64,000 nucleotides of DNA from Ascidia mentula (lineage: Eukaryota; Chordata; Ascidiacea; Phlebobranchia; Ascidiidae). Both the position numbers and the translations under genes were made by a program. Each line of letters opens with the position of its first letter. Position 1 is the first letter of the stretch. The notes beneath the pieces were generated by a model. That model was not told where the DNA came from. It did no database searches and was given only the letters and a program-made list of their open reading frames with translations. Positions 39,045 through 64,000 of this stretch are shown piece by piece. The stretch is from positions 15,562,001-15,626,000 of the forward strand of contig OX387203.1 in NCBI GenBank assembly GCA_947561715.1, in the 5' to 3' direction.

Positions 39045-39084
39045 GATGCCACGCAATCTTCTCTGTCCTGCGCACGAAAAAAAA
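39043..39084. other. U6 array junction with an inverted U6-like 12-mer and a 40-bp sequence shared with 49359-49398
   Basis: Positions 39045-39084 match 49359-49398 with one difference (C/G at 39071). The stretch begins GATGCCACGCAA, which is 11/12 identical to GATGACACGCAA of U6 at the break. It also holds AATCTTCTCTGT (39055-39066), the exact reverse complement of U6 ACAGAGAAGATT at 39013-39024, so the junction can fold back as a 12-bp stem with a 30-nt loop. A long A-tract follows. The layout suggests a recombination or template-switch event that joined the array to a sequence like the one at 49359. Confidence 0.75.
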
Positions 39085-42400: not shown

Positions 42401-43636
42401 GAGCGACGCAGCCACTCCTCGCTGTGACCCTCCCTCAACTTTTTTTGTAGTTGGGTGTCAGTATTTCCAAGTCCTCTTTCGCGCAGCATACAAAGTACGC
42501 GCAGCGAACATGAATAACGGTATGTCAGCACCAGTAAAAAAATGGCCTGACAAAAAACAGATCCGCATTGGATGGTGGCTTGGAGTAGATGGCTGGGGCG
42601 GGTAGAACCACATCTGATCAAGCTGGCGCAAGACCGGAGTTCCCCCTGCACCAGCAGTAAACAGAGCCCGGGACACCCAACGATGTTGATGAGGCGGTAG
42701 ACCTTCCTTCCAGGGTTTGGGAAGTAGGATCTAACAAAAAAAAACACATGATTAAGTGTAAAATCAATTTTAATGAAGAAACACATAGTATTGCTTGTGT
42801 TATATTACTTAATGTTGTTAAGTTTTATTTGTTATTTGGATAGGTTTTTGACAAATAAAAACCCAAAATTACCTCCGGGTTAGCTTTTGTAGTTGTGGTA
42901 ATTGTACCAGAACTGGTGCTGGGTTGAGATTGATCTCCTGTTAATAAAAAAACAATCACTAAAAAGTAATACAACCATGATTCTGCTAGTTCTTCAAACA
43001 GAAGTTGATACATACAAGTCTTACCAGCAAGCTCGGTCGATACAATATGCTCAACAAGCTCAGCGTCAGTGACATCATCGACTCGTTTCCCTTCACATTG
43101 CGGGAAATACAGTTGCAGCTTGTGAAGGGTCGAACCCTTGTTGACCTGACTCTTGCCAATGATGAGCGGCTGCAAATCATTTACAAAACATGAGCCAAAA
43201 TGCAAATACTAGTAACATTTATATACTTTACAGCTCATATAATGGTCTTGTACAGCACAATATGTACATAACTTGCCGGTATGAGACATGCTCAGGCGAC
43301 TGTGACTTGTACGAGTCAGACCGCTTCATCCGAGCATATTTGCCGAAGCCAACAAGTTCCTGAGCCGCTGATGCTGAGTTTGCCTTCTGAAGTTGGTGGA
43401 TTGCTGCAACAACCAGAGGAAAAGATGTTGCATAACGAAGCAGTGCAGCCTTGTTGGTCATGTGGGCAGTTGCCTTTACATTGGCTGTGCTCCGAGATGT
43501 TTCCTCCTACAACCACAGTGTTCTAATATGGAATGTGAATAGTTATCACACAACTATACAATACACAAAGGGTACACTATATTATGTTAACAAAGCAAAT
43601 GACTGCACAACTTTTGAATTCTTGGAGTTGGGTGAC

Positions 43637-44903: not shown

Positions 44904-47900
44904 TCAAAGTTTCATTTTTTTGTGGAAGGTCACCTTTTCAGCCCTCCTTCGCTTTCTCTGGTGTGGCTTTTTTCCACAACAGCTTGCTGGAGGTATTGTA
45001 TGCACATTGAAAATATTTTTGCTGTTAAGATTGTGTTTCATGTATTTCAGAAAGCATTTTCCTCTTTCTTCCTTAGATAGTTCGCACCAATCTGAGTATG
45101 GTATTTCATGTTCTTTGTATTTTGGTCTTAAACTAAACGGTCCTAATTTTATTAATGCTTTTTCTGCTTCTGTGTACTGGCACTTTACCACTCCATAAAT
45201 CATTGTAACTAGTTCCGGGAGCTTCAATTGTTTCCATTCAGATTTTATCTTTGAAACATGGTTTATGCTTTCTGCATAATTGTTGGACCATCCTAAGTCA
45301 ACTTTTAACCTTGGTTCCCAAACTTTTTCTTTTAGAAGTGGCAAGAATCTGCAACTCAGATAGGTGTGAAGAGTTGATGGATATTTTTCCATAAATCCAT
45401 GCAGCATTCTTGTTTTTTCTTCCTCGAACTCTATTTCATCAACGGATAAAAGTAAGTTAAACACTTCATCAATTATTTTGTTTCTTTCTGTATTATTTAG
45501 GCCAATTTTGTCGGATGCTGTAAGTATTGCTTTAAATGCCTTGTACACAAAACATGCACTCATTTGGAAAAGCTTCCATAATGGCATGGTGCAAGGCCTT
45601 CTCGTCATCTGTTCCGAAGATAATGTTGTCGTTTTTTAATGCAAACTTTAGCGTTTGGAAAAATTCCAGGTAAGTTTGAGTGTCAGACCTTGTGTAGAAA
45701 TAATGGATGCTTTTGGGTTAAATTCCGAGTTAATGAAAGATTTTGGCACACAGTTGTTGTAAGAAATGTTTTATCCACACACAGGACAGCTTTGGAATTA
45801 CAGCAAAACCTATTTATATCTAAAATTTGTTCTTCTGTGTAACAAATTATTGAAATTGGGCGTCCCTTGTAATTTAAACACTTCTGAACAAATTCATGTG
45901 TCTGGGCCATGTCAATTATTTTCATCACCTCCTTTTTAACTGAAGTTGGGTCTTTTTGCTTTTTTAGATTGTACTTTGTATTATATATTTGCTGCAAATT
46001 CCTTGGCATTGATGTTAGATTATCTGTATTTTGCATTTTTTCATCGTATATATTTTTGGCAGTTTTCAGTGGAACTTCTTTGCGGAGCTCATCAACAACT
46101 TCTGGACAAGTCCGAATGTAGTTGCTCTGATTTGTTTTGCTATTTCCATGGGGTATTTGGAACGGTTGATTTCCTTTGTATTCAACCAGGTATAATGGTA
46201 TCACTTCGTCATTTCCATAATATTCCAAAAATGATATTCTGCGCTTGTAGTTAGTATTATTGCAATGGGAGCCAATAAATTTGTTCAGTTTTATCAAGTT
46301 TGATTTCATTGGCTGTGGATCTAACTGGTGATATTTGTATTCGGGTGTGGTTTGTTTGGTGCACATTTTGTTTCTATATTGATACAGCTGCTTGAAACCG
46401 TTCCTTTCAAAATAAGATGAGAAATAGGATTTTTTTTTCATGCTCCTCAGTCGTCCCAAAACTTGTTTTTGAACCCTAGTTTCTTTCGCTGAATGTTTTC
46501 TGTGTTTTGTATGACAAAATAACAATTTTCTTTTTTTCCGAAAGGTATGCTTGCAAGTCCAGTTGTTGTTTTGTTTGTCAAAAATTGTAGAACCTTATGG
46601 GTGGGCAGAAACTCATTGCATTCCAGTTTTCCTTCGTTAGTTTTTGAAATTGTTTCTTCAAAAGAATCAGATGTTGACTTTTTAGGATTTGAATTTTCCT
46701 CATTTGCTTTTAGATCACCAGGAGTAAAAGAGTCTTGATTTGCTTCATTTTCTGTTGAATCAAACCAAACTGATTTCGAATTTTCCTTTTTTATGCAATT
46801 GGGTAAAATGTTAAGACCAGATTTATTTTTTTATTTTTGTCCATTATTTCTTCTGTGTCTGTTGTATCCGATTCTGAATTTTCTCTTTTGTTTGCAGTTG
46901 ATGAAGTATGCGAAATGTTAAGATCAGATTTATTTTTATTTGTTGACTCTAAGGGATCTGGAACATCTGTAGTAGAATCGAAGCAAACAGAAGAAGGTGG
47001 TTCTGGTATAATTTTTTCTGACTGAGTTTTACAAGGAGATATTAAGTTTACATTGCTTTCTGAACCTTCCTGTTTAATTGGTTTCAGACAGTATCCTGTT
47101 TTGGGGTTTACTTGCTCAGAATCTACATCATATTCTATTTCAAGATCGTATTGATTGACCACTGCACAAAAATGATTTGAAGTCCAAATTTTTCCTTTTG
47201 TTTCTTGTGCAATTCTTGTCCACATTATATAAATTATTCCATTTGAACATTGACCAATTGGTGAGAATGTTTTATTTCACATGGTATACACTTCATCTTC
47301 TGGTCCATTGCATTTGGGGTAAATGGAACGTATATCCATTGCTATTGCATCACAAAGTGCCATTATGGTCCAGGTAGAAGAGTAGCCACCATCTACAATA
47401 CAGTCCTTAACGGACTCCCAGTATTCTGGAGATATAAATTTCCAGTTTTGTGCTGAAATGTTTGTTTCATATTTTTCTGCATTACAGATCATATTTATGG
47501 CATTCCTTAATCGAAGTTCAGTTGCCAAAGACTCATCACCTGCAAGCCCTACAGAAACTGCATTGAATAAGCAGTTTCCATCTGGAGTTGTTCTTACTGC
47601 AACTTTGGATTTATAATTTGGTAAGTCTTTTAACAGAACATTTGAGTGATTATCCAAATTTATGCTGTTTATCGCCAACTGTTTGTTTGTAAATGTATGA
47701 TTGAAGTTTTTCAGAAGCAAATCCTCTCTCTGTGCTTTTTTGATCAATACATCTTTACTGAAACCACACTGAAAAATAAAAAAAACTAAATAAATAACTA
47801 TCCTAAGATTGTCAAGATGTTGTTTTATGACCTTTTTCTGAACATCTGCTAAAGTGTATACTTATGTATCATGCTATGCTAAAAGTCTTCACTTATTTTT

Positions 47901-48236
47901 TAGTGCATTCTGGTACTTTTCTTTAAAACTGTTATGTCTGCTGCTAACCTTTATGCTAATTCACTAAAATAGCTTACAATGACAAACATGTGATTTTAAA
48001 ACACAAATATCATGTTCTTACAGTGCCAAGTCTTCTAAGTGACTGTTTGTAATTGAATCCTCTACTTCCTGCTGTACAACACATCTGGCACAAAAATGCT
48101 TCCTGTGTCAAATCCTTCCAGTCATTCAGATCAACATTCTCACATTTCCAGTGAAACCATTTTTTGCAATTTTCACAATAAATGCAATCTGTTTGGCAAT
48201 TTTTTTCTACATCTCCCACAGGGCCAATATTTTCTT
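44904..48236 (-). pseudogene. MULE transposase with PHD finger and OTU protease domain (decayed)
   Basis: Read on the minus strand, an exon at 48022-48236 gives a PHD-type cysteine array (CIYCENC, FHWKCE, FLCQMC) and a GTAAG donor. The next exon starts at 47768 and contains an OTU protease core, with TTPDGNCLFNAVS holding the catalytic Asp and Cys. An in-frame TGA at 47277-47279 interrupts it. The same frame continues with NKTFSPIGQ...IIYIMWTRI, then an acidic Ser-rich linker (frameshifted near 46.79 kb). Next come a region with YKYHQLDPQP and LVEYKGNQPF and a MULE core, with VLCVDKTF and FGTDDEKAL as likely first and second Asp and YAESIN further on. Another frameshift or deletion lies near 45.69 kb. 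It ends in a basic tail (HQRKRRRAEK) at 44904. The OTU-plus-MULE combination is known from animal MULEs and vertnin-like proteins. This copy is inactive. Confidence 0.75.
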
Positions 48237-49340
48237 CGAGGCATTTTTATTTGCAAAAACCAATTTGTATGAACTAAAATAATTTACTGTAAAAAGATAT
48301 CATGTCACTTTGAAGCTGGTTTACAACAACCTACTAATATTTTCCTCAGGTTAACTAGCTGTTTAGTTCTTTTAGTACACTTTTTTTTAGATGTTGTGTT
48401 GTTCATGTATTTATCAAATTTTGTTTCAATTCGCAAGACATTACATATTTGTTGCAAATGTCTCGTGTTTTTCTAAGGTACACTTTCAGATGCAGTGTTT
48501 TCAGTAACTTTGGTTCTCCTATCAACTTGCAAGACATTACACAAGTTTTTTTCTAGCAGTTACAGAATAGTAAAGGATAAAAATAGCAGTAATAGGGGTG
48601 CGTTTTCGTTTGTGTTGCGTGTATTTGCAGTAACACAAATTAACATTTTTCCTGGCATGTCTGTTTAATGCACTTGGCAAACCTCCAAAACCCACCAAAT
48701 ACTGAAAGATGTACAAGACTTGGCCTTACTTTTATGTATTTTTTAATACATAACGGGCAAAGAAACTGCATTTCACAATAAAGTTAAAAACATCGATAAA
48801 CAGTATATCACAATACTTTTGACTGAATGCACAAGTAGGCTACTGCATTTTTTCATAAAAGGACATGTCATGTTGTGGGATCCAAGTCTCTGATGATATG
48901 GCCTCTCTCAACACAACCTGCAGACAAAGTTCCCTGTTAACCCTGCCGACCCGGCATACCCTGCCCACCCGGCATACCCTGCCGACCCGGCCAACCCGGA
49001 CTTGTAAGTTATTTTCTGAATGTAACCTGAATTGGGTGTTCAAACAAAAAGCAAAATATGCGACTTACCGAAAGCCATGATTACCTTTGTCTCTCCTGTA
49101 AAGTTTGTAGCAAAAAATATTAACTGTTTGAACGGCAGAAAAAGGGACTACGATTTCTATGCCGATGATTAAATAAAAAAATTCTCACCGTAGTCATATA
49201 TCAATTATTAAATAAAATTAGCTAATTCGCAATTATTCTATTTTATTTATCTTCTTTATTAATTTTTGTAAAATAATATTCGACCGTTTTAATTTTGCAC
49301 AGACATCGTATGCGTGTTTCAATTTGTTTCAATTTTACCA
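48237..49340. other. Non-coding AT-rich sequence
   Basis: Apart from the 18-bp GC-rich repeat at 48941-49000, I see no supported gene, RNA or element ends. It lies upstream of the minus-strand OTU-MULE gene and may contain that gene's promoter or unrecognised first exons. Confidence 0.5.
48941..49000. repeat. 18-bp GC-rich short tandem repeat, about 3 copies
   Basis: CCCTGCCGACCCGGCATA at 48941-48958 and CCCTGCCCACCCGGCATA at 48959-48976 are followed by a degenerate third copy. The surroundings are AT-rich, so the block stands out in composition. Confidence 0.85.
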
Positions 49341-49358
49341 CGAACATCGCCGTTCGAG

Positions 49359-49398
49359 GATGCCACGCAATCTTCTCTGTCCTGGGCACGAAAAAAAA
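49359..49398. repeat. Second copy of the 40-bp U6-junction sequence
   Basis: This is the copy of 39045-39084, in the same orientation. It holds AATCTTCTCTGT (49369-49380), complementary to U6 nt 41-52. It lies directly upstream of the ATG at 49398 and may be the 5' leader of the microexon gene. Confidence 0.85.
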
Positions 49399-49428
49399 TG
49401 GAAAAATACTTACGTAGAGATGTCAGGT
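49398..49428 (+). CDS. Possible first exon of the microexon gene
   Basis: An ATG at 49398 opens a short frame (MEKYLRRDV plus two bases) ending at a good donor, AG|GTAAGC. Its phase fits the acceptor TTGCACAG next to the CACTA left end at 49712. From there the frame runs through the exon remnant at 55667-55739 into the microexon frame, except for one TAA at 55718-55720. The phase agreement is suggestive, but a 31-nt exon has little coding signal of its own. Confidence 0.3.
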
Positions 49429-49430
49429 AA

Positions 49431-49711
49431 GCCTTTTTCTCACCTCTCTCTCGGTCGCCTTTTTCGCTCTCTCACACATGTTTGGCGCGTCCTAAAGCAA
49501 GAAAAGAAGACTTACGTAGACAAGTCGGGTATAGTTTGGCGGGAACGTATTTGGCATAGGACACCAAAAAGTTTCTTGTTGCAAAAATAAACCTCTTTCT
49601 ATGACGTGGAAACACTAAACATTTGTTTGTGTTGGTTTACTTCTGTTGTAAAGAAAATGAGTTTTAGCAATTGCACTATCAATATTGATAAATTGTTTTG
49701 CACAGCACCTG
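49431..49711. other. Probable intron sequence left of the CACTA element
   Basis: The stretch runs from the GTAAGC donor to the TTTTGCACAG acceptor immediately left of the CACTA end. It contains a second CTTACGTAGA motif like the one in the putative first exon. No other feature was seen. Confidence 0.35.
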
Positions 49712-49739
49712 CACTGTAAAGCGTAAAGGTGGAAAATTC
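49712..49739 (+). repeat. Left terminal inverted repeat of the CACTA element
   Basis: Starts CACTGTAAA and pairs with 55639-55666. Confidence 0.88.
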
Positions 49740-50851
49740 GGTAGGGTGGAAAATTACCCACCCTACGCATGGGTGGAAAGTACAATTTACAACCCTATGT
49801 AGGTGAAAAATTAATAATCTACCTTTTTCGATCATGACCAAAGGATAAATCTTTTGATTCCACCTCAGATAGGAGGCGCACATACATTTTTAATTTTTTT
49901 ATGATAGAAACGAAAGTGCACTAAAATCCACGCTATGTTTCCGTTTGTGGCAACCACCTACACTCAGAATTTTTGATTTAGGCTAAATCGTTTACAACTT
50001 CCTCCATAGCGGTGTTTCCTCATCTGTGAGTCGCGACTCAAAGTTGGGTCGCTTATTGCAAGTAAAGCAAAAAATTGTGTATTAGGACTTGTGAATATGG
50101 ATGCTTTGTAGTTTTTTAAGTGTTTGTTACGTCAAACTGACTTTTATGCTTGTGCGCGATAATTTTGCATTATAGAATTTAAAAAATAGGGTTTCCTGAA
50201 AAAAGGTTGGGAATTATTGCTCTGTGGTAACACCACAAGTTTATTTGGTAGTAACTAGTGGAAGGAGGCGGATATGCAAAAGTTAATTAAAGAGAGTGTT
50301 TTAGCAGTATCTTCAAGCAAAAATAAAATTAATACAACAACTGTATCAATAAAGAGTGTGTTTTAGCAAAGGACGATTTAACTGCGCACCGCAGAACTTG
50401 TGCCATAACACGTGACGCGGCGGATGAATATTGGCAAAAAAGGAATTATGAAATTTTTTCTCTGCTGCATAATTCTTGAATCGTTTTAAGTTATTTTTAA
50501 TCCAAATTAATATATTGTTAAAATACTTTTGAAGAATACTCGAATCGATTAAATATATATCAAACAATTTGTAGTTGTACACGTGGGGACTACTTTGTCT
50601 TTGTGGCATGTTACTTGTTAACTGATCTCTTTATTGATTGCGTCCTGCGTCGCCTGCACGTGTTGTTGCAAAATATTTCAGTTATACAGGAGTGGTTTGT
50701 TATTTGTAGACCTGGAAGTGTTGGACAAGTTTTTTGGTTGAAAAACTGGCCCTTATATTTTGTGTGGTAAGTAGCCCTTGAAGCAGATACTTCTAATTTT
50801 CTTGAAAAAAAATATAAAAATTTAAGTTGGTAAAGTGTGTACAAGACGACC
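49740..50851. other. 5' region of the CACTA element
   Basis: Non-coding sequence lies between the left inverted repeat and the transposase start. Inverted GGGTGGAAA/CCACCCTACG motifs occur in the first 60 bp. No conserved promoter was recognised. Confidence 0.55.
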
Positions 50852-53150
50852 ATGCTAAAGTGCCCTTACCCAGGATGTGATGTGGTACAAAGTTCATTTA
50901 AGCTTCACTTAAAACATCTTCGAAGCAGCCATTTGCATGAAGGTTTCACCGATCGTTTTAAATGTACATTGGAGAACTGCAACAGGACGTACACATCTTA
51001 TGAATCGTACCGTGTGCATTTGTACAAATCACATAAATGTTTAAATGACTTGATTGATTGTGGTGAGACCAATAATAATCCTAATGCAAATTTATTAACT
51101 GTAAAGCGAAAGGATGAAGAAGTATGTGAGGAGGCTCTTCCCGAATTTCAATTTGATGACTCTTTTATGTCACTGTTTTTAAAGCTGCGCGAAAAGCACG
51201 TTTTGCCAGTAACTGTGTCTTTAGACATTATGACTGATGTTGCACAATTTGTTTGTCAGTTCCATACTGAGAGTCCTTTAACTTCTATCAAGCATTTTCT
51301 GGCTGACCAACATCAAACGTTATGTAAAAAAATCAAAAATGAATCATTTTACAGGAATTATTGCCTGTCTGTTGGTTTGGTTGAATCTAAGGAAATTAGT
51401 TTGGGTATGGACAATGGAAGTTTTCAGTATGTACCAATTACTGAAACTCTAAAAAGATATATCTCCCATAGTGATGTTGCAGACAGTATTGCCAGAAATT
51501 TACAGCATTCACATGTAGGATTATGTGATTATACAGATGGAGAAGCTTTTCGACTAAATGCATATTTTAAAGGGGATCGATATAAATTGAGAATACAACT
51601 ATATTGCGATGATATTGAAGTGTGTAACCCTCTTGGAACATCCCGTGGTATTCATAAATTAACCTGTTTTTATTTTACGATTTGCAATATGGAAAAAAAA
51701 GTATCTTTCGAATCACAGCAATATACATTTGTTAATTGTTGCCTTGTCTACACAAAATAATAAAGAATGTGGGATATGGGCCAGTTCTGCATAAATTCTC
51801 TGAAGACATGGAAAACTTGGAAAAGTTTGGTTTGACTGTTAATGTAAATGATGGCCGGACTATTCACTTTATGTGTGGAGTTTCTTGCATATGTGGGGAC
51901 AATTTGGCCATGCATGACATTGGTGGGTTTCGCAAGACATTTTCTAGTGGCCGTGTTTGCAGATTTTGTTTGTGTACTCATAATGAAGTGAAGTCCAAAT
52001 GTCATGAAAGCATGTTTGCTTTGCGAACAGCACAAAATCATATATCACATCTATTGCTGAGGATAACTCTCTAATTTCTGCATACGGAGTAAGGTGCTCA
52101 CCCATACTTTCAAACCTTTCATCATTTGATGTCATACTAGGCCTACCCCCAGATATTATGCATGATATGCTGGAGGGGGTTATTCCAGTTACTTTAAACC
52201 TGATAATTGAGGAACTTGGAAGATCAAAGAAACTGTGTCGATCTGACATTATTCACAAATTAAAAGACTTTCAGTTTGGCCGCAATGACAGGCAAAACAA
52301 GCCTGTTAGTTGGATTCTCGGAACTTCATGTGCCCTAAATGCACATGAGTCATGGTGTTTGTTTAGGATTTTTCCGTTTTTGTTGGGCCAATTTGTTTCT
52401 GTGGATTGTACTGTGTGGAAACTATATAAGTTGTTGTCAAACATTTGTGACATTGTGTTTGCCCCTGAAATTGCTACAGAATGGATCAATGAACTCGACA
52501 TACTTATACTTGACTTTTATCAGCTAGTTATGGAAGTAGATAAAACAAAACTGAAACCGAAGTTTCATTTCATGTTGCATTACCCAAGATTAATTATACG
52601 CTTTGGTCCACTACGACACTTGTGGTCAATGAGGTTTGAGTCTTATCACCAACGGGTAAAAAAGGTTGTGAAAAGATCTTGCAACTTCAAAAACATTTGC
52701 CTTACTGTAACCAAGCGTATCCAGGGACTGAGGTGCTGGGAACAAAGTGGGATGAACTGTCTAAGCAATGACAAAATGTTAAAAGGTCATGTATCCATTA
52801 AATATATTAGTGTCAACTCTATGCCAACTGCTGCATTTAATCTCCTCAGTAATACTTTTAGCGTGCTAAACCCTAACTTAGAATCGACCAGGTGCTTGTC
52901 GTTTGACTGTTGTCGCTATTGTTTTAATGATTTTTTTGTCATCGACATAATCGAGGAGCAGCCTATTTTTTTGCAAACAAAGTTTATATTGCTTATTAAT
53001 GAGGGATGGTATATAACTGGTAATTTGTATTATTCCAATTACTGGCATATTTTTAAGGCTGGAATGGAAATGAGTCGTGCTCATGATATATATGTGGTTA
53101 ACAAGCATGAGTATATAAAGCTCAATTATCGCATTTGCCCTCATGAATGA
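50852..53150 (+). pseudogene. CACTA (EnSpm, tnp2-like) transposase with N-terminal C2H2 fingers, two frameshifts
   Basis: The ATG at 50852 starts a protein with two C2H2 fingers (CPYPGCD...HLRSSH and CTLENCN...HLYKSH). The transposase region follows with LYCDDIEVCNPLGTSRGIHK and FYFTICNM, which match the Asp-rich core of animal EnSpm transposases. The frame shifts near 51755 (LVYTK to IIKNVGYG) and again near 52045 to reach GLPPDIMHDMLEGVIPVTL, then stays open through KPKFHFMLHYPRLI and MRFESYHQRVKK to a stop at 53150. Homologues read continuously across both shift points, so I treat them as mutations, not introns. RNA or a sister copy could prove otherwise. Confidence 0.8.
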
Positions 53151-53277
53151 CTTGACATAAAAACGTAAGCTAACAGTGGCCATCTGTATGCAGCTTACGG
53201 AAATCATTATTGCCTCCACTTGCTTATATAAAAGTTTATAATTGTTTTTTTTGTGGTTTTCTAGAAGCTAGTCAAAA

Positions 53278-55182
53278 ATGTTTCATGTGACTTATGGAGA
53301 TGTAAAAAAAGTTGTAACAGTAAGTTCACTGGAAAATCTACATGATGTTCTGAAAAAAACTTTTGGTGTAAAAAATATTCAGCTGCAAGTGTTTAACAGT
53401 CAATTTCAGGATTGGGTAGATGTGGAAAATAAAGAAATTATTCCAAATTTAAGTGAACTAAAATTACAATCAAGATCACCAGAGGAACCAACTACAAGCC
53501 CGAGCACTAGCACAGCAGAAGAAAGTGATGTTACATCACCATTTGAAGAGTCGTTTTCGAGCACTTGCAGCATTGAAGAAGAGTTACTAAGTGGCCATTG
53601 GTATATAAATTGCCACCATTTCCGATGTGTGTTACTGCTTCTATAAAAGAGGAAGAGGCAATTATACCAGGTAGAACTAGAAGGCAAATTGTAAATATCA
53701 TTTTTAATGATATGCGAAAATACACAAAGTAAGTATTATTTTGTTTCGTTGCAAAAACGTGCTGTGCAGTGATATTGTGTTTTTATTTTTAGTTATCCGA
53801 TGCCAAATCAGTATAGAGAAGTCTGTTTGTCTCTTGTGACAACATACCCAGCACTGCGAGACAGGTTTTCACCAACTGGATCATTTCATGTAAGCCCTCG
53901 TTTGTTAATACAAAAATTGTGTTAATTTGTATCTTTATGTTAGACTTCTTGGCTCAACATGTTGCGAGGCAAGTTCAAGGATTTCAGAAGGCATCTTGTT
54001 GAAGATGCTATTAGAAACAAAATGAAAGAAAAGTATGGCCAGTGTTACAAGCGTAGAAAGCAAGATGACGTGGTAGAGACAGTAAGCAAAAAGAGAAGAA
54101 GCAAGCTTTCGGATAGTGTGAGTTAACAACATATGTTTTCTTTTGCAAGTAAGTGTGTTTCATTAGCATTGTTTCTGTACATATACTCGGAATTCGAGTG
54201 CAGAAGATGAATTCAGCATAAATTATCACAAAGAAGTATTAAAAAAGGAAATAAAACAGAAGAATCCTAATTTTTCTGTAATCAAAGACAGGCTTATGAG
54301 GACTTTCTCTGCAAGGAGAAAATTAATTCTGGAAGGGTTGCCCATGAGCGCATTGTTTGAAGAGTACGAGGCATTACAGTTTTCGACATGGGTAAGCATT
54401 ATGTTGGAAAGTTTTTTTTTGTGGTGAGCTTTTTCAACTCATATGTGAGGATCAGTCATTTTGTTTTTGTGCAGAATGGTGAGCAAATTCATTTTTTAGA
54501 ATATAAAAATGAAAAGTTTTTGTGAAGTTATTGGAAGAAATGAAGCAAATAACCAATGTTGATGTTGAGAATCTTCTACAAACTGCGGAACTAAGAAAGG
54601 CAAAAAAGTTAATTCGTTGGGGTGATGTTCCAGAGGCTTGGAATAAAATTTTAGGTGGACATGCTACTGAGCAAAAAACTGTTTATTAATAGAATTGTTT
54701 TTGGTTTATAAAGTGTTAGTATATCTTCTTATGTATGGGGTGCTGCTTGTTAAAAAAGATTATACATGTATCATGTGTTGTTTTAGATCAAGATGTTTTT
54801 TTCTGGATGCTTTGTATTCCAACATTGTTTAAAGAAAATTTGGCCTATTTCTTTGCAATGGACAAGGCAAGTGAATTGATAATTGTTTCCCCTTTCAAGC
54901 AAATACATTAATAAATTATATTTGCAGGATGTTATCTCACCATATCCAACCTTACAGTATGATGCTGATAAAACATGCTTCTTTGTTTTTGTGGATGGTT
55001 GGGCTGTATCAGTCAGTGGTGGTATCTTGCAAGGGTTATCCACACTTATTGCTGCTTATTGGGTTTTTGATGTAACCATTCCCAAGCAAATTTCCAAAAC
55101 AATGTCATTGTTATGTGGGTATATTTTATATATTTATATATTTGAATGTAAAAGTGGAAGTGCCTGTGTTGAAAGTGATTAA
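53278..55182 (+). CDS. Second gene of the CACTA element, SAMD3-like (PB1-like start), multi-exon
   Basis: The first exon (ATG 53278) gives MFHVTYGDVKKVVTVSSLEN, a PB1/CIDE-N-like fold start. It shifts frame near 53595 to WPLVYKLPPFPMCV, followed by RRQIVNIIFNDMRKYT. Splicing at 53728/53793 and 53889/53944 gives YPALRDRF and TSWLNMLRGKFKDFRRH, the hallmark of SAMD3-like proteins that accompany animal EnSpm transposases. Later exons (about 54195-54390 and 54500-54690) hold basic and helical segments. The last exon (from 54929) gives FFVFVDGWAVSVSG and AAYWVFDVTIPKQ and ends at 55182. The 5' frame break and one unresolved exon join near 54118-54195 leave its integrity uncertain. Its role in transposition is unknown. 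Confidence 0.6.
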
Positions 55183-55638
55183 CAAACTGTAAAGTTTGGC
55201 CAGTTTGTTATGCATCAAAAATGAGCTGTTCATTTTCTTGGGAGTTCCCAGACGTAATTGTCTCATGCATTATGTGTGGATATGTTTTACATTTGAATGT
55301 AAGTGAAGTGCCTGAACCTGTGTTTAAAGTAATTAACTAACCTTGAAGTTTCGCCAGTTTGTTATGCAGTAAAAACGAACTGTTGATTTTATTGAATCCC
55401 AGACAACTGTCGTGATGCATCTAAATCGAAAAAATACAAACTGATGCTGGACAATAAAATATGTGTTTGTATTGTGCTGTAGGGTGGAAACTGCTACTTC
55501 ATGGGAGGGTATGGAAAAGTATCCTCTCCAGTAGGGTGGAAATTGCACTATCATGGGGTGGTTTAGTAACATCCACCCTTGGGTTATATAATGTATTTCA
55601 TCCCTATGGGAGAAAAAACTGTATCACCCACATAGGTG
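55183..55638. other. 3' region of the CACTA element
   Basis: Non-coding sequence includes two GTAGGGTGGAAA motifs (about 55482 and 55531) and CCACCC/GGGTGG inverted motifs leading to the right end. Confidence 0.6.
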
Positions 55639-55666
55639 CAAATTTCCACCATTACAGTTTACAGTG
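55639..55666 (-). repeat. Right terminal inverted repeat of the CACTA element
   Basis: Ends ...TTTACAGTG, the inverse of the left end. TG follows, as it precedes the left end. Confidence 0.88.
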
Positions 55667-57499
55667 TGGGGCACCCCTGCCTTCACTGCCTCAAAATGGT
55701 GCCCCAGGTGCAAACCATAATCAGGAGAAACAAGCACAAGTAAGAGTTGGAAATTTAAATGTTGAGGTCTAAGTTGAAATATATTTTGTTTCGCAGAAAA
55801 GAAAAAATATGCCCAAAGGTATTGTTATACACTTTTGCTTTGGACATGCTTAAGTAACTTTGTGTAATTTTACGCAGATACCTGACTCAAAGCGAATTCA
55901 GAAAGCTACAAGAGTAAGTAAATGTGCATTTACACATAAAATCAACTGAAAAAAATAACCCACTTGTTTTACTTTTTTAGTATGAACAAAATGTCAAAGA
56001 CGGCAAAGTAAGTAGCCTAATTGCTAAACACTTATCATGAACATGCACTAGTAGTAATTAATATCATTTGTTTGCTGTTCAGATGGGTATCACCCCAATA
56101 TTTTCAGGAAAATGTAAGTTGTATTTTAAGTAAGTCATGAAAACACAGGTGGAATAATTTTTAATGTTTTTATAAATCACATTTATATATTTATTTCCCA
56201 AGTTGTACATTACTGTTTTTGGTTCAAAAAGTATTAAATCATTGTTTTTTTTTTGTGATGTACATCACTATTTTCAGTTTAAAAAGAGAAAAGCAACTGC
56301 GGTGGTAAGTGTTGTGTAATGCTGGTTGCACAGTTCACTGCTAACATATTCAATCTGCTTATTGACACTCATACTACATTATGTTATACATCAACTTATT
56401 TGTAATATTATTAATTATGTGCAGACTGACAAAGCCAGGCAGTGCCTTGTGAGTAACTTTTGTACAAAATAAATTCTAATTTGTTCACTAACATATGATG
56501 TGTGTTTTTTTGTGTAGACAAACGGAGCCAAACAGTTTCTGGTAAGTTTTAAAAACATTTATTCTTTGACAACATTTAAACCATTACATTTTTGCAGAAT
56601 AATGAAGTGAAGCAGTTTGTTGTAAGTGACTACATTGCAATGTTAATTATAAGTTAAAATCTTTTTTTCATTAACTTACAAACCACAATTTAATTTTGTT
56701 TTTGTGCAGATTAATGAAGACAAAGCGCCAAAGGTAAGAACTAAATTGTAACACCCGTAGTGCCTATCTTCATTAACTTATAAACCTGATCTAATTTTGT
56801 TTTTGTGCAGATTGATAAAGCCAAAGTACCAGAGGTAAGAACTTAATTGTAACACCCGTAGTGCCTATCTTCATTAACTCACAAACCACATTTCAACTTT
56901 GTTTTTGTGCAGATTGATAAAGCCAAAGTACCGGAGGTGAGTAACACTACTACCTATCTTCATTAACTTACAAACCACAATTTAACTTTGTTTTTGTGCA
57001 GATTAACGAAGATAAAGCGCCAAAGGTAAGAACTAAATTGTAACACCCGTAGTGCCTATCTTCATTAACTTATAAACCTGATCTAATTTTGTTTTTGTGC
57101 AGATTGATAAAGCCAAAGTACCAGAGGTAAGAACTTAATTGTAACACCCGTAGTGCCTATCTTCATTAATTCACAAACCACATTTCAACTTTGTTTTTGT
57201 GCAGATTGATAAAGCCAAAGTACCGGAGGTGAGTAACACTACTACCTATCTTCATTAACTTACAAACCACAATTTAACTTTGTTTTTGTGCAGATTAATG
57301 AAGATAAAGCGCCAAAGGTAAGAACTAAATTGTAACACCCGTAGTGCCTATCTTCATTAACTTATAAACCTGATCTAATTTTGTTTTTGTGCAGATTGAT
57401 AAAGCCAAAGTACCAGAGGTAAGAACTTAATTGTAACACCCGTAGTGCCTATCTTCATTAACTTATAAACCTGATTTAATTTTGTTTTTACAGACATAG
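55667..57499 (+). CDS. Microexon gene with eleven 24-nt exons encoding 8-residue repeats
   Basis: No known family was recognised. Exons, each bounded by AG and GT, are 55797-55818 (22 nt), 55878-55913 (36), 55981-56007 (27), 56083-56113 (31) and 56278-56304 (27). Eleven exons of exactly 24 nt then start at 56425, 56518, 56598, 56710, 56811, 56913, 57002, 57103, 57205, 57294 and 57395. One frame stays open through all of them, including SEFRKLQDMNKM and KWVSPQYFQEN. The 24-nt exons give TDKARQCL, TNGAKQFL, NNEVKQFV, then INEDKAPK and IDKAKVPE repeats. A TAG at 57497 ends the frame. Introns are 56-164 bp. The exon remnant 55667-55739, next to the CACTA end, carries an in-frame TAA (55718-55720), so the gene may be dead or may start at a Met in the 27-nt exon at 55981. 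The product would be lysine-rich and repetitive. It converges on the Ulp1-MULE gene. Confidence 0.7.
56669..57487 (+). repeat. 292-bp higher-order tandem repeat of three microexons plus introns (about 2.7 copies)
   Basis: The exon order is A (INEDKAPK), B (IDKAKVPE, CCAGAG end), B' (IDKAKVPE, CCGGAG end with a GTGAGT donor), then A, B, B', A, B. Corresponding exons are exactly 292 bp apart (56710/57002/57294; 56811/57103/57395; 56913/57205). The introns are near identical between copies (77, 78 and 65 bp). Confidence 0.93.
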
Positions 57500-57577
57500 A
57501 AAAGCAGACATTGTAAGTACATTCACAAAATTCATGATGTGTGTCATTCACATTGCTGTTTTTATTTAGATGTCACC

Positions 57578-57583
57578 AATAAA
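57578..57583 (+). terminator. Candidate polyadenylation signal of the microexon gene
   Basis: AATAAA lies in the exon after acceptor TTTAG at 57567-57569, downstream of the TAG stop. The position fits a short spliced 3' UTR. Confidence 0.4.
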
Positions 57584-57620
57584 GAACCAAAAGATTTGTT
57601 TATTGATTTTTTTGCAAAAA

Positions 57621-57762
57621 GGGTTTTGCAACCTTCGCACAGCATAGTGGCATATACACCTCACTCGATAACAAAGCGTTTGCACTGGCTAGGGTTTTGC
57701 AACCTTCGCACAGCATAGTGGCATATACACCTCACTCGATAACCAAGCGTTTGCACTGGCTA
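57621..57762. repeat. 71-bp tandem duplication
   Basis: The sequence beginning GGGTTTTGCAACCTTCGCAC at 57621 is repeated from 57692 with one visible difference (ACAAAG/ACCAAG). It sits between the ends of the two converging genes. Confidence 0.92.
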
Positions 57763-58192
57763 GGGTTTGTAAAATATGATAACATTTTTATGATTAATTT
57801 GGACAAACAAAATATATACCATTTGATGCATCATCAACAGTTTTGCCTACACACTCTGTGTGGAACCATTGTATGCATCTTGTACATTCAACCCAAAGAG
57901 TCTTGGAATTATCATTGCAAAACTTGCACATGTCTCTTTTGGGTTTACCATTTAGGCAGTTCCCTGCAATTGTATCAAATATTTCTTTGCGGTATGAGTA
58001 TACAGAACCTCTTTGTTCAAGGCTTGTTGCCATAGTAAGCCACTTGGCATACATGCAAACAAAAACTCCACAACTGCCAGAATGAGGTTGGTGTACTCGT
58101 TTTGGGGATTCCAACGATTCAAGCTGAAATTTAAATTTTTCTGACAGCAAATGGTTGACCATTGATTTTGCCATAGAAAGACCTTTCACATA

Positions 58193-58213
58193 TACTATGT
58201 TTCCATGTCGCGA
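58193..58213 (+). repeat. Left terminal inverted repeat of the Harbinger element
   Basis: 21 bp, a perfect match to the right end. The core GTTTCCATGTCGCG recurs as a direct copy at about 58272-58285, perhaps a transposase-binding subterminal site. Confidence 0.93.
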
Positions 58214-58568
58214 TTTGGCTTAGCCCAAATATTTGGTCCATGTCTTACGTTTTTGGCCAAAAACGGGTCGTGTTTCCATGTCGCGTACGCATTCAAGCAT
58301 AACAGTGTTTCACACTTCGCTGATCAATTCCCGGGGTTTGTGTAAGTGCGAAAACCTGGCAAATCGCCTCTGTTGGTCACCAAAACAGGCAAATAGGAGT
58401 GAAATGACGGTCCATATGGCAGTTGTATGGAGGTTAATTGCATTTTATGTATTTAATGGCCAGTTTACTTAAAAAAAGGGTTCAAAAGTGTTGTTCCAGT
58501 CTAGTCACCAAAAAGACAGTTTTATGACACTTTTCTGTCAAGTATCAGAAAACGTTTGTTTATAAAGT

Positions 58569-59638
58569 ATGGAGGACACAAGGCAAAGGTGGAGTAAACA
58601 GCAGGTTTTAGACCTAATTTCAGTTGCAAAGGAGGTTAAGTTAATAGAAAAGTCTGACAGTAAATCCTGCAGAAACAAAGATCTATTAAGTGATGTGGTG
58701 ATCAAGATGAACGAAAAGGGCTACAACTTCACCATGTAAGATATTATTGTATATATGTGTCTACTTTGCAATTTTCATTAAAACTTTGTTTTTTTGTAGT
58801 TCACAAGTACGAAGAAAGTGGAAAAGCTTGAAAAGTGAATATCATAAAATAAAAATTGGTCTTGGAACATCCGGTCATTCATCAAAAGGATTAAATTGGC
58901 CATATTTTGAACCAATGGATGAATTGTTTGGTACGAGACCTCGTTCCATGGTGAGACTTATAATCAATTTGAACATAATGTTAATTGTTACAGTTTAATG
59001 TTTATGTTAAGTCATCAGCTTCCTCATTTGGATTTGAGTCTTCTGATAGGCCACCATTGCAAGAAGTTTTAGAGATGGAAAATGAGCAAGAACATCAAGA
59101 AAATGTTTTTGCAACTTTGCTAGGTAGGCATGTGATTATAAAGGGCATTAATTTGTGTTAATGTCTAACATTTGTACTGCAGAGGACAATTTAGACGAAA
59201 ATGCAAGACAGGGATTTGAAGAGGCAAGCAGCTCAAGCAGAGTGGATCCGCCATTTGTCGAATCACAAAATGTTCCAAACCTACAAGCAACGCAAGAAGA
59301 TAGCATTCAGTCAACCCCTGGAGTAACAAGAGGTAGGTTTTGATTTAAACATTCTGTATTATTGTTGTTGATTGTTTCTTTTTGCTTAGGAACATCAAGG
59401 AGATCATTTCAACGGAGAACAAGAGCAACTAGGGCTCAGGGTAAGGGACTTTGGATAATTAAATCAAAGTACATCAATTGTGAACATATATGTTTAAGAT
59501 ACTGGAAGTCCACAGGCAAGACATGAAGAATTGCTTGCACACTTCAGAGAGGTGGAGGCAAGATCAAGTGCTCAAGTAGACAGAATGCTGAACATTTTGG
59601 AACGATTAGTGGATACTATAGACTCCACTCACCGTTAA
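58569..59638 (+). CDS. Harbinger Myb/SANT-like DNA-binding protein
   Basis: This partner protein of Harbinger transposases is known to bind the transposon ends and help bring the transposase into the nucleus. Six exons (58569-58735, 58800-58950, 59012-59123, 59183-59332, 59390-59440, 59499-59638) join in frame to 256 residues. The N-terminus (RWSKQQVLDLI, then RRKWKSLKSEYHKIK) is a Myb/SANT-like trihelix. The middle is Ser/Glu-rich, then a basic patch (RRSFQRRTRATRAQ) and a C-terminal helix (LAHFREVEARSSAQVDRML). The ATG at 58569 follows TATAAAG closely. An AATAAA lies at about 59659. It converges on the transposase with about 70 bp between the stops. Confidence 0.88.
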
Positions 59639-59709
59639 GCAATTGTGTTTCCTTTCAAATAAAATGCTCAAAAATGCAACAATGAATTTTATTGAAAACA
59701 TGACATTTC

Positions 59710-61243
59710 TCAGTTCGACATATTATACAGATAATCGGCAATTGTAGCTCTAATTGTGTTATCAGATGCTGCGTCAGAGAGTGTTTGTGAGGGGACATTT
59801 TCTTCATCAACATCCCTTTGTACAGGCGTTTGGGCCTCTTCACATATATTATGTAGTATGCAGCATGCACCAACTATTAGCGGCACTTTATCAATTTTAA
59901 CATCAAGGGCTCTTTTCAAAAAACGCCCTCTTGCTTTTAATCTACCAAAAGCATTTTCAATAACAATGCGGCTACTGCTGTGGTGAAAGTTGAACTTTTC
60001 CTGCTTGTTCGTTAGTGTAGATCCTGTGTAAGGCCTCATTAACCATGGTAGCATTGGGTAAGCTGCATCCCCCAAGATCATTAGTGGGATTGCCTGGGCA
60101 CCAATAATAATCTCACTCTAAAAAAAACAACAGAATGTTATTGTATATGAAGTAAATCAGTGCATAATGACATATTTACGTATTACCTTTGGCAGATTAG
60201 ATGAGTTTTTGTAAAGGAATGATTTTTTCAAAACAGATGCATCATGCTCACTTCCAGGACATTTTATGGAAACATCTCTAAACCTTAAATTTATGAATGC
60301 AACATTATATTTTTTGTGAGTATTGCCAAACATCATCAATTCCTTACCTGTACTGATTGTCTGCTACTGCTTGCAAAACTATTGAATGAAATCGCTTTCT
60401 ATTCAAATAATCCCTCGATCCTTCACTTGGGGCACGGACTGCTATATGACAACCATCAATAGCCCCATACACTTGAGGAAAACTTGTTTTTTGAAAGTTG
60501 CTTTCAGCAAGTTGTTTTGCTTCTGATTGATTGGGCATTTTTATGAAAGTTTCTTTTCTTCTTGCAAGTGCTTGACAGAAACTGACAACATACAATGGTT
60601 AGGCATTTTATGCAAATGTTTACAATGTATTTAACACACCTGTGCAAAAAGCGATGAACTGAAGTTTTATGAACTCCAAATAAAGATCCAACCACTCTAA
60701 ATTCACAGGCTGAGGCTAATTTAAAAATTGCAATTGCAACTCTCATGTCAACAGGAACAGGTTTTCTGACCCAATAGTCATCTGCAACACAACATATATT
60801 TTATAGGCTACTGTGTATATGCATCTCCCTGTTATTTTTGGAAGTTTCTTAAAACTAACCAGGTTTCATATCATCCTCAACCAACGACACGATTTCATCA
60901 AAAGTTGATTTTCTCATCCTAAAACTTTCCATCCATTCAATGTCAGACACTGAAACTTTAAATTTTGGCCACCAATCTGTTGATCTATATTATGCACAAT
61001 TTTAAAACAAAACCTAAACAAAATTATTATCATTGCCAACCTGTTTCTCATCCAAAATCTTCGCTGCTGCTTGGTATGACAATCTTCTAACATCGACATG
61101 CATAAAATTCTTTGTAGTTGTCTATTTTTTGCATCATTTAACATAGTTATCATCACTGCATCAACAACACATTTAACCACTGTTTTTGTCTCCACTTCCA
61201 TATTGAACTTCTGAGCTGACCAACAAGCTATGCTACAACACAT
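59710..61243 (-). CDS. Harbinger DDE transposase (PIF type)
   Basis: The enzyme would cut and join the element at 3-bp target sites. Six exons on the minus strand (61041-61243, 60860-60984, 60640-60781, 60348-60581, 60187-60283, 59710-60117) join in frame to 402 residues with no stop. The catalytic Asp-Asp-Glu lie in VYGAIDGCHIAV, CPGSEHDASVL and RIVIENAFGRLK; GDAAYPMLPWLMRPY and ACCILHNICEE are further DDE_Tnp_4 signatures. An upstream helix-turn-helix-like part reads FKLASACEFRVVGSLFGVHK. The start at 61243 gives MCCSIACW; a second in-frame ATG at 61201 (MEVETKT) is equally plausible. Confidence 0.92.
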
Positions 61244-61665
61244 TCACACAGCAATACAGGGCAGGCAGGCACACAAAAAAAGCCTGTAGTGAACCTGTTT
61301 TCCTGAAACAGGAAATTTAATTGGAATAAAGCTACATACTTGACTTTTACTACTTAACGATGTACTTAAATCAAACTGATGTCGTAAATTAAGCAATTAG
61401 TGCAGTCTGCGACGAGACAACGACGTTGCTTGTATCATGCGATACGTAACTGCGCCAAAACATCCGAAAAACTACTGTTTACTGCGCAAAAAGCTACCAA
61501 ACCTTGCTGCAATTACTACATGGCCTAAAAATTACTTGGCCAAAGTCAGTTAAGGACCACCTATTTTGATGGCCCAAAAATTCAGCCGTTTTGGCCAAGT
61601 ACTCGGCCTGCGTCATTTGCGTCACTTCCATATTTGGTCACATGGCCCAAATACATGGACAAAAC

Positions 61666-61686
61666 TCGCGACATGGAAACATAGTA
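61666..61686 (-). repeat. Right terminal inverted repeat of the Harbinger element
   Basis: 21 bp, the exact inverse of 58193-58213, followed by the ATA duplication. Confidence 0.93.
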
Positions 61687-64000
61687 ATAGTCAACACAGG
61701 AATTTTGTAATGGGTCGACATACAACAATTTCCGTTTTCCAATGTTGACAGCAAGAAGAATCCAATGTCTTTTAGTTATCCAAGGCAAAAAAATTATTTG
61801 TTTTTTGTCAAGAGAGATGCCACTCCACAGTCGTTTAATAGAGCCTTTTTGTACTAATGTACGGACCACCATAGAACATACATACAGTGTATGGCTGTTG
61901 GCAGTGGTTAATCTCCACAAGTAACTGTTAATAACTTCATCAGTTAACCAGCCAGGGATGAACTCTTGATCTTTAGATTTTAACATCGCTTTTTCACTGT
62001 CCGGTAAAACAGGTTCAACTGTTTTTAGATCCAACATACAGAGAGAATGTGGCCCATTTTTTAAAATCTGCTGATCAATCTTGGTTCGTTTGTTTACAAT
62101 CTTTGGGGTTTAATGTTTGTGGCTTGCACCTTTTTATGTGATTTGTTTGCAATATAGGCTGGTGTGACAAAGTCATCATCCGTGTGTTCTAAAATAAATG
62201 TCTTGTTTGATTTTTATTTCAACCCTGTTGCAGGAAACAAGGTTTTGACTTGTGTAAAGGTCTCATGAGGTTTGCTATAGCACCAACTCTTGAAGTATAT
62301 GGATTTGGTTTTGGTTGTTTTCTGGGCAGCTCATCATTTTTCGATAGTGGATATGATGGTCTTTTTCTTTTAAGGGTCTTCAGTTTGGGGGTTTGACTTA
62401 TTCTAAAACCACCATCGAAAGAACATGCCTTCGTAAAATTTGATAACCATGTTTCAATATTTGCAGCCGCATCATCCAAAACATCTGATGAAGTAACATC
62501 ATAGGACATATCCAGCAAGGCCTTTGTCACTTCAACAAACTTATGGTGGCTTTTCTGCAATTTTGAACTTTTATTGGAAGGAACGCTGTTTTCTTCATAA
62601 TCATTTGAATGTGTTGGTTTATCAAATTGCTTGGTTGCAGGTTCATCCATTTTCTTTGATGCTTGTTGAACCGATAGTTGACCAACAATTTCTGGATCCA
62701 GTATCATATGTACTGAATTGTGGTACCATGGAGGTAGACTATACCAGTCTACATCATTGTACTTTTCAAAAACAGCAAACATGTGCTTGCAAGGCAAAAA
62801 ATACCTTGTAAAATCTGCACATGTGCATTTGGGAAAAGCAGCAGTTCCTCCGAAATTTATGGAATAAATTTCATCCTTTGAGCAACTTTTTGTCGAAAAA
62901 ACATTCCCATTCCTTTCAATTGTACTTGCTGTGACATTCGATGATTCCCCAATTCGCTGCATGCAATGCTTCACTATTTTTCGAGGTCGGTTTTGAAGGA
63001 AGAGGGGAACAAAGTCACTGTAGCTTCGATAGTGACTTGAGGATCTCATATTTTCTTGTTGATACCTAAAATGACAAGTGTAACCTATTTGCTAATGATT
63101 TTATACATTTACACATACACACAGTGTAATTTAAACTTACTTAACCAACCCTTCTGGCAGAAACTCTTTATGTAAAACTGTAATCAGGCCAGAAAGAGAT
63201 CTGTCTGTTCTAAAACGAATGTGACATTCTTTTAAAATTCGATTTTGTCATTCAACGCCATTGTTGGTTCGTATAAGAACCTTTAGGCGATCTGCTCGGT
63301 AAACCCACAACCATCTCTAAAACACAGCAAACAGTAGTAGATGTATCTGTATTAATACTATGTTAAACCTCATTTCTTCCTTCTTTTTCTGCCAACCAAA
63401 CAATAGTGAAATATTTTTGAAGCCTTTTGTTGTCTTTCCAGTAAGAGCTAGACTGAAATTTGTTTAAAGATTTTTGAAAACATTCCTTGCTTTCAGCATT
63501 TGCAATAGCTCTCATAACGGCTAACACACTTTCTCTATAATCCCCAACATTATTTTCAGATTTTTTCACCCAGCGCTCCCATGCCTGCTCTCGGTGGAAG
63601 TCACATATAAGCACTCGACAATCTGAAGTGATAAATGATAATATCATCTAGCATTAATGTCTATTTAACCTCTCTTAAAATGCAAGGTAACGAAACACTC
63701 ATAACATATATAAACAAAATCTCTTACCTTTAAAAACACTTTCAAGTGCATGAATTTCAGCATCGCATTTGTCTGTCATGAAAAATGCTGGTTTCCAATT
63801 TGGTGTCCATTGTTTAAGAACTGAGAGTGCTTCTTCTATGTCAAATTGCCGTTCATTTTGAGTGATGAAAGTTGCAACAACTTGATACCCAACGTTTGTC
63901 TTCACACAAACAAAAAACAATGGCAATGCATATTTAGATGTTTTATACGTGGCATCCATAAGGCAAATGTCTTGACCATAACGCAGTAGAAGTCTGCGCT

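Follow-up and report, generated by a model that had tools for sequence, protein, structure and literature searches.

A putative second gene built of microexons, with lineage-specific repeat exons, in a Mutator-like DNA transposon of the ascidian Ascidia mentula

Mutator-like elements (MULEs) with a second gene and host genes assembled from very small exons have both been described, and the following account draws on excerpts of the cited papers. Maize MuDR carries two convergent genes whose promoters lie in the inverted repeats, and its second protein, of unknown function, is apparently needed for integration (PMC3440606, PMC6446971). Phantom MULEs, which include tunicate elements, have one or two open reading frames, with a minisatellite after the transposase frame in aphids, and Rehavkus MULEs encode a PHD finger and contain a minisatellite before the 3′ inverted repeat (PMC6446971). 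One chordate MULE sequence, from Ciona savignyi, is reported in that source, where the words "ulp", "exon" and "intron" are absent. As for the host genes, the micro-exon genes (MEGs) of schistosomes are characterized by short symmetric exons, of at most 36 bp, whose removal leaves the frame intact (PMC8293314); they encode a signal peptide, and their introns span 0.1-5 kb (PMC10526429, PMC8293314). The bicycle genes of aphids are also made of microexons and encode fast-evolving proteins, their structure being more conserved than their sequence; megacycle, within this group, is marked by internal tandem duplications (PMC9168663).

The locus described here lies in a window of 64,000 nucleotides (C71:15562001-15626000) of the A. 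mentula genome, which was searched over 195.8 Mb in 79 contigs. Between window positions 55797 and 57418, sixteen short predicted exons of 22, 36, 27, 31 and 27 nt, followed by eleven of 24 nt, are bordered by AG and GT and keep one open frame, the exonic share being 407 of 1622 nt (25%), in agreement with an earlier note on this DNA. The gene extends further than that note proposed, since an exon 1 split in two parts and a stop exon had been missed (Table 1). The donors are GTAAGT, GTAAGA or GTGAGT, with the exception of exon 2 (GTATTG), and the introns measure 56-164 nt. The reading of the array as symmetric tiny exons stands for the eleven 24-nt exons, all in phase 0, and fails for exons 2 and 5, which are not multiples of three. 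Its further claim, that each 24-nt exon encodes one 8-residue repeat, proved correct for what is here considered a real coding microexon gene, and skipping of such an exon would thus keep the frame.

Table 1. Predicted features of the microexon gene, of the element that carries it and of the elements nested in it (window coordinates)
Feature	Position	Strand	Remarks
Exon 1, part 1 (ATG..., MSFSNCTINIDKLFCTAP)	49657..49711	+	cut by CACTG element; unbroken 126-nt exon 1 at L010 2889-3014
Exon 1, part 2	55667..55739	+	donor GTAAGA
Exon 2	55797..55818	+	22 nt in this copy; L009 and L010 have 23 nt and donor GTAATG
Exon 3	55878..55913	+	36 nt, phase 2; same size in L010, L009, L057 and L073; 54 nt in L069
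Exon 4	55981..56007	+	27 nt, phase 2
Exon 5	56083..56113	+	31 nt, phase 2 to 0; KWxPxxxFxEN motif
Exon 6	56278..56304	+	27 nt, phase 0
Exon 7	56425..56448	+	24 nt, TDKARQCL
Exon 8	56518..56541	+	24 nt, TNGAKQFL
Exon 9	56598..56621	+	24 nt, NNEVKQFV
Eight tandem 24-nt repeat exons	56710..57418	+	INEDKAPK or IDKAKVPE; introns 65-78 nt; unit ~101 bp, higher-order unit 292 bp
Repeat exon starts	56710, 56811, 56913, 57002, 57103, 57205, 57294, 57395	+	24 nt each
Stop exon (ACA TAG)	57494..57512	+	followed by one more putative intron; AATAAA ~57578
Mutator-like element	49400 to ~65463 (beyond the window; L054 base 872)		inverted ends and 8-bp target duplications
Transposase 3′ part: end of Ulp1 (C48) and PHD finger	57797..58192	-	Pfam
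Transposase: N part of Ulp1 and SWIM zinc finger	61687..63091	-	Pfam
Transposase, further coding stretch (CDFHREQAWERW)	63363..63647	-	open reading frame; MULE domain itself called on L009
71-bp tandem repeats	57620..57768		between the two convergent genes
Nested CACTG element, 5955 bp	49712..55666	+	inside exon 1; ends CACTGTAAA...TTTACAGTG; target duplication TG
Nested Harbinger element	58193..61686		DDE_Tnp_4 (Pfam); target duplication ATA; interrupts Ulp1 part of transposase; empty site in L009

The arrangement of borders exceeds what composition would generate. In 55797-57520, the pattern [CT]AG-N24-GT[AG]AG has 11 matches on the plus strand and none on the minus strand (11 and 3, respectively, across 42001-64000), whereas 500 first-order Markov sequences with the composition of the region averaged 0.068 matches and never had more than 2. 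Tandem Repeats Finder, on the other hand, recovers among the last eight exons a three-exon unit of 292 bp with 97% match, so that these exons form a tandem array and are not independent events. A minisatellite that happens to place AG and GT 24 nt apart, with no gene at all, would produce this 101/292-bp periodicity, and would also agree with the lack of an exon-intron contrast among close copies; it would leave unexplained the eight non-repeat exons upstream, the divergent lineages that share plan and phases while differing in their repeat units, and the codon-position bias between two of these lineages (see below). A chance minisatellite is therefore extremely improbable.

A 34-letter pattern made of a repeat exon and its borders has 20 genomic matches, which fall at four places on C71, and none when read backwards, while the terminal-exon pattern has eight, namely that of the window and seven further places. 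Seven other places in the genome match the array, and all seven were compared with window positions 45001-64000. Close copies share, in whole or in part, 49402-49711, 55667-57489, 57620-58192 and about 61700-64000, without the nested elements. The left end of the window copy, GGAAAAATACTTACGTAGA at 49400, is preceded by AAAAAAAT (49392-49399); the right inverted end (L054 846-872) is followed by AAAAAAAT again, the 8-bp target duplication of this copy. Likewise, the L009 copy, 6742 bp long, is flanked on each side by the 8-bp duplication TATAATTC, and its inverted ends are about 75 bp as counted by eye. Terminal inverted repeats and target duplications of 8-11 bp, by which MULEs are classified, are thus present, and a MULE-type DDE domain was recognised in L009:471-1199 (PF10551, E 1.6e-10; PF21056, E 1.4e-12).

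This domain belongs to a neighbouring gene, the transposase gene, whose open stretches are of 243, 94 and 596 codons. According to Pfam, one open stretch in L009 contains ALS2CR8, MULE and ZSWIM RNaseH-like domains, and the one of 596 codons contains SWIM, Ulp1 (C48) and PHD domains; on account of these domains the carrier is assigned to the Mutator-like elements. The layout, as defined by reading-frame direction only, is convergent, with the microexon gene on the plus strand and the transposase gene on the minus strand. A protein search with the transposase returned 12 proteins, and the only match with a named organism is LOC113474043 of Ciona intestinalis; across 98% of the SWIM/Ulp1/PHD part the two are 35% identical, and they have the three Pfam domains in common. 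The 71-bp repeats that separate the two genes were found by blastn in 4 of 27 loci near transposase relatives (L027, L028, L037 and L043, among L027-L053); since the 1.5-kb flanks of these loci barely reach the second gene, those without the repeats say little. The same repeats are 89-95% identical in L015, although the transposase region of L015 is only 51% identical, which hints at constraint on the repeats or at exchange between subfamilies. Separately, a short non-autonomous element at L010 298-732 is bounded on both sides by inverted ends of this MULE family, and its flanks carry a matching duplication.

The window copy has been entered by two other transposons. For the CACTG element, the empty site is found in L010 and was also read in L009 and L011; the element encodes a C2H2-like protein at 50834-51757 and has another coding stretch at 52008-53147, further exons, and GTAGGGTGGAAA-like repeats close to both ends. 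The further exons recall SAMD3-like proteins, and the element is presumably CACTA/EnSpm-like. A candidate 5′ part of the microexon gene in this C2H2/SAMD3-like stretch (50.8-55.2 kb) was rejected, as it belongs to the nested element. Both nested elements are later insertions into the Mutator-like element. The copy in the window is a broken relic, with a split exon 1, a changed exon-2 donor and an interrupted transposase, and the full protein cannot be made from it. The earlier note was right in proposing a coding gene, while it overlooked that the gene is a multi-copy transposon gene and that this copy is disrupted.

Positions 43-39059 of the window are occupied by a tandem array of U6 snRNA genes with 34 full copies and one cut copy, with a period of 1145 bp and one differing base in all among 33 units, the first included. 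The edge of this array is 10.3 kb from the MULE, and the MULE target (49350-49399) and the broken last U6 copy (39045-39080) share, by eye, GATGCCACGCAATCTTCTCTGTCCTG.GCACGAAAAAAAA, perhaps the tail of a retroposon. A GC-richer stretch adjoining the U6 array holds an open frame with DUF6729 (E 4e-26; 41383-42804, minus strand), perhaps another mobile element, and the minus-strand open frames at 44904-47861, including an OTU-like protease (47280-47861), look by eye like another mobile element.

The intact form of the gene can be read from the close copies, here called lineage A. In L010, exon 1 runs from ATG to CAA over 126 nt (MSFSNCTINIDKLFCTAPGAPLPSLPQNGAPGANHDQEKQAQ) and is followed by exons of 23, 36, 27, 31, 27, 24, 24 and 24 nt, six 24-nt repeat exons and the ACA TAG end; the exon-5 donor is GTTAGT, the reading frame is open and the transposase part is absent. 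L009 has an exon 1 of 135 nt, exons 2-9 of the same sizes as in L010, open reading over exons 1-9, and eight repeat exons, one of them of 23 nt. In L011, four repeat exons are present and exons 3-5 are for the most part missing. With the 23-nt exon 2 of L009 and L010 the frame of this exon differs from that of the window copy; exons 3-5 begin in phase 2, and phase 0 applies from exon 6 onward only. Both genes are whole in no single copy examined, L062 and L011 being decayed; the better copies lie at C71:14496384-14503125 and C71:15657889-15659620. L010 and L009 differ by five synonymous and five non-synonymous changes (pS 0.073, pN 0.018). Within lineage A, exons differ by 2.3-3.3% and introns by 1.4-1.9%, that is, exons are not better conserved.

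A divergent lineage B (L057 with L028, L068 and L069) came to light next to a transposase of 78% identity and through exon-1 searching. In L057, exons 2-10 measure 20, 36, 27, 31, 21, 24, 24, 24 and 24 nt and are followed by 21-nt repeats (PTSKESE, PTSKDLE) and the end GCC AAG GAT TGA, with a mutated exon-4 donor (GA) and exon-5 acceptor (GG). Both sites are sound in L069, which has a 54-nt exon 3, exons 1, 7 and 8 out of frame and no exon-6 acceptor. For L057, a model in which exon 4 had 31 nt and exon 5 had 36 nt was discarded in the light of L069 and L068. In lineage C, exons 2-6 of L073 are of 23, 36, 27, 31 and 24 nt, followed by 24 nt (AHEVNKTV), 24 nt (TNETKDTE) and ACG AAG AAA TAA; exons 1, 7 and 8 were not recognised in this copy. 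In a second copy of lineage C, L058, a script identified three repeat exons, and part of a fourth is seen by eye. Across the best copies of the three lineages, the 36-, 27- and 31-nt exons are constant and the others differ by multiples of three. Protein identity between lineages is 41-45%, and the invariant columns of a four-row alignment read K....PKG......F..LQ.....P...KW.P...F.EN.

Over 107 codons aligned between lineages A and B (L010 and L057), of which 48 encode identical residues, pS is 0.713 and pN 0.318; differences fall 44/26/57 on the three codon positions, and Fisher's test on non-synonymous versus synonymous changes gives p 3e-8, on an alignment made on protein, which favours identity. 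For this reason, the six exons of equal length were also compared without gaps: of 55 codons 24 are identical in residue, the position counts are 23/14/28 (p 0.098 with L010, 0.04 with L009, 0.03 with the window copy), and the true frame contains no stop in either lineage, against three to five in each other frame. With lineage C (exons 3-5, 31 codons), the gap-free comparison is stop-free in the true frame; the codon-position signal is weak, with counts of 10/12/16 for A-C and 7/9/11 for B-C, and stops are rare or absent in several of the wrong frames. The exons of A and B score from -0.54 to 0.70 per base in global alignment (mismatched exons: mean -0.91, best 0.04), and their introns average -0.64, a value that falls among those of mismatched introns, for which the mean is -0.80 and the best -0.26. 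That an exon plan is kept at 41-45% protein identity, together with an A-B pN of 0.32 against a pS of 0.71, argues that the gene is coding. Accordingly, the coding constraint across relatives on which the earlier note staked its reading was found between A and B and, more weakly, with C, while inside lineage A it left no exon-intron contrast. The transposase of A and B shares 186 of 243 residues (pS 0.43, pN 0.11), and the predicted microexon gene evolves faster than the transposase gene between these lineages.

The same evidence bears on the possibility that the transposon took up a host microexon gene, Pack-MULE fashion, and now carries it as a passenger. A tendency of MULEs to take in pieces of host genes is on record (PMC6446971), and a homologous microexon gene was not found in one more distant relative examined, L033/L059, whose transposase is about 53% identical. 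On the other hand, when the A. mentula genome was searched with exon 1 of lineage A and of lineage B, 10 and 8 matches (E up to 0.1), respectively, were obtained, together at ten places; the nine examined (all but C71:17322167) carry more of the microexon gene and none is a separate host gene, in a search that would miss a diverged exon 1. In addition, the gene is under purifying selection between A and B. Remnants occur in L014, L015 and L070, while L056, L071 and L072 retain little; as the gene is common to A, B, C and these remnants, an old resident is likelier than a recent passenger, and capture of a host gene is considered unlikely. Independently of this question, L059 with L033 (C69:8901886-8909200) has an apparent other convergent multi-exon gene, MTKFAED..., with a 93-nt exon ESPVNHMLKALNFLHERLKWKRHYYNLKNSP, in which no homology to the microexon gene is seen by eye.

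The number of repeat exons varies among copies. In lineage A, it is eight in the window and in L009, six in L010 and four in L011; in lineage B, two (L057 with L028) and three (L068); in lineage C, three and a part (L058) and one (L073). What is repeated is a tandem unit of exon plus intron near the 3′ end, with a phase-0 exon of 21 or 24 nt that differs in each lineage (INEDKAPK/IDKAKVPE in A, PTSKESE in B, TNVTKDTE in C). Units resemble one another inside a copy but not across lineages; separate amplification in each lineage is therefore most likely, and may have proceeded in DNA by unequal exchange or slippage. Since the repeat exon is in phase 0 and a multiple of three, units can be gained or lost at no cost to the frame, and each added unit would lengthen the protein by one repeat of seven or eight residues.

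The product predicted from L010 is 163 residues long; its calculated pI is 9.5, and lysine makes up 16% of it. Protein searches detected no homologue of the spliced product (E 0.1) or of the alignment A1 (E 0.01); both searches depend on 5-residue words in common, and microexons would escape the gene predictions behind the proteins searched. No Pfam family scored above cut-off, and exon 1 (MSFSNCTINIDKLFCTAPGAP) shows by eye no hydrophobic stretch or signal peptide. This last point touches the likeness to schistosome MEGs that the earlier note had drawn, and the possibility that the locus is a secreted, variably spliced host gene. Short exons, many of them symmetric, and repeat exons are indeed present; however, 15 of the 17 introns of the window copy are below 100 nt, against 0.1-5 kb in MEGs, exons 2 and 5 are asymmetric, and no hydrophobic signal peptide is seen by eye in exon 1. 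A host gene of this type was dropped because the gene travels with a transposase between inverted ends, and is regarded as very improbable.

Under intron definition, the size of an exon matters little. Introns of 56-164 nt suit this mode, which tolerates tiny exons, and each intron of the microexon gene would be recognised singly. The sequence CAG/GTAAGA, a consensus donor, lies inside the inverted end, and the inverted ends, as at L009 6099-6125 and L055 2383-2409, continue into CAGGTAAGA, which matches the consensus of a 5′ splice site. A leader exon shared by both genes is therefore possible. In this scheme, RNA would start in the inverted ends and the leader exon would be spliced to just before the ATG.

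P-element transposase is limited in the soma by intron retention. By analogy, the array could act at the RNA level as a splicing gate that allows protein only in well-splicing cells, for example the germ line. Twelve or more junctions are needed for one small protein, introns are as short as 56 nt and the transposase gene of the same element has longer open stretches, all of which would fit a gate; yet splice sites mostly near consensus and short introns predict easy splicing, and selection at the codon level indicates that the protein itself matters. A gate of this kind is considered unlikely, if slightly less so than host capture. The reading preferred is that of a small, basic, lysine-rich and probably nuclear protein that would help or regulate transposition, as MURB may do for maize MuDR. 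On gene layout and charge, and because MuDR has an equal plan, such an accessory role is rated the most likely function and is held with middling confidence. The transposon origin and the coding nature of the gene are much surer. Taken together, it is highly probable that the locus represents the second of two genes in a Mutator-like DNA transposon, split into microexons, with units amplified lineage by lineage and a putative MURB-like accessory function.

More tentatively, the microexon gene may be itself mobile, its protein growing by DNA duplication of exon-plus-intron units, with possible variation by skipping. If so, host genomes could acquire through such elements microexon arrays ready to be spliced, which would open a route for the origin of microexon genes; the small exons could also gate transposition by tissue. 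The series of copies, with four, six and eight repeat exons in A and other units in B and C, would make the birth of a microexon array by tandem duplication traceable, and a dozen tiny exons with such short introns would offer a compact test system for splicing.

As regards the described systems, in the excerpts of the cited sources, schistosome MEGs share with the present gene short exons, of which many here are symmetric; transposons are enriched around MEGs but do not carry them (PMC10526429, PMC8293314), unlike here. Aphid bicycle genes are putative host effectors, many with secretion signals, and lie outside transposons (PMC9168663), again unlike the gene described here. Among MULEs, a microexon second gene was not found in the portion of PMC6446971 describing Phantom and Rehavkus. 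More generally, among the matches listed, in titles and the beginnings of abstracts, no transposon with a second gene built of microexons was found, so that both components are known while their combination in a transposon was not met with in the literature searched. A close counterpart is maize MuDR (mudrA plus mudrB). In contrast to MuDR, the second gene here is made of microexons, with exon units that have been amplified, Ulp1 and PHD domains are present in the transposase, and the Pfam and protein searches found no homology for the second protein. In common with it, as far as the excerpts describe MuDR, the element belongs to the Mutator superfamily and consists of two convergent genes, one of which encodes the transposase.
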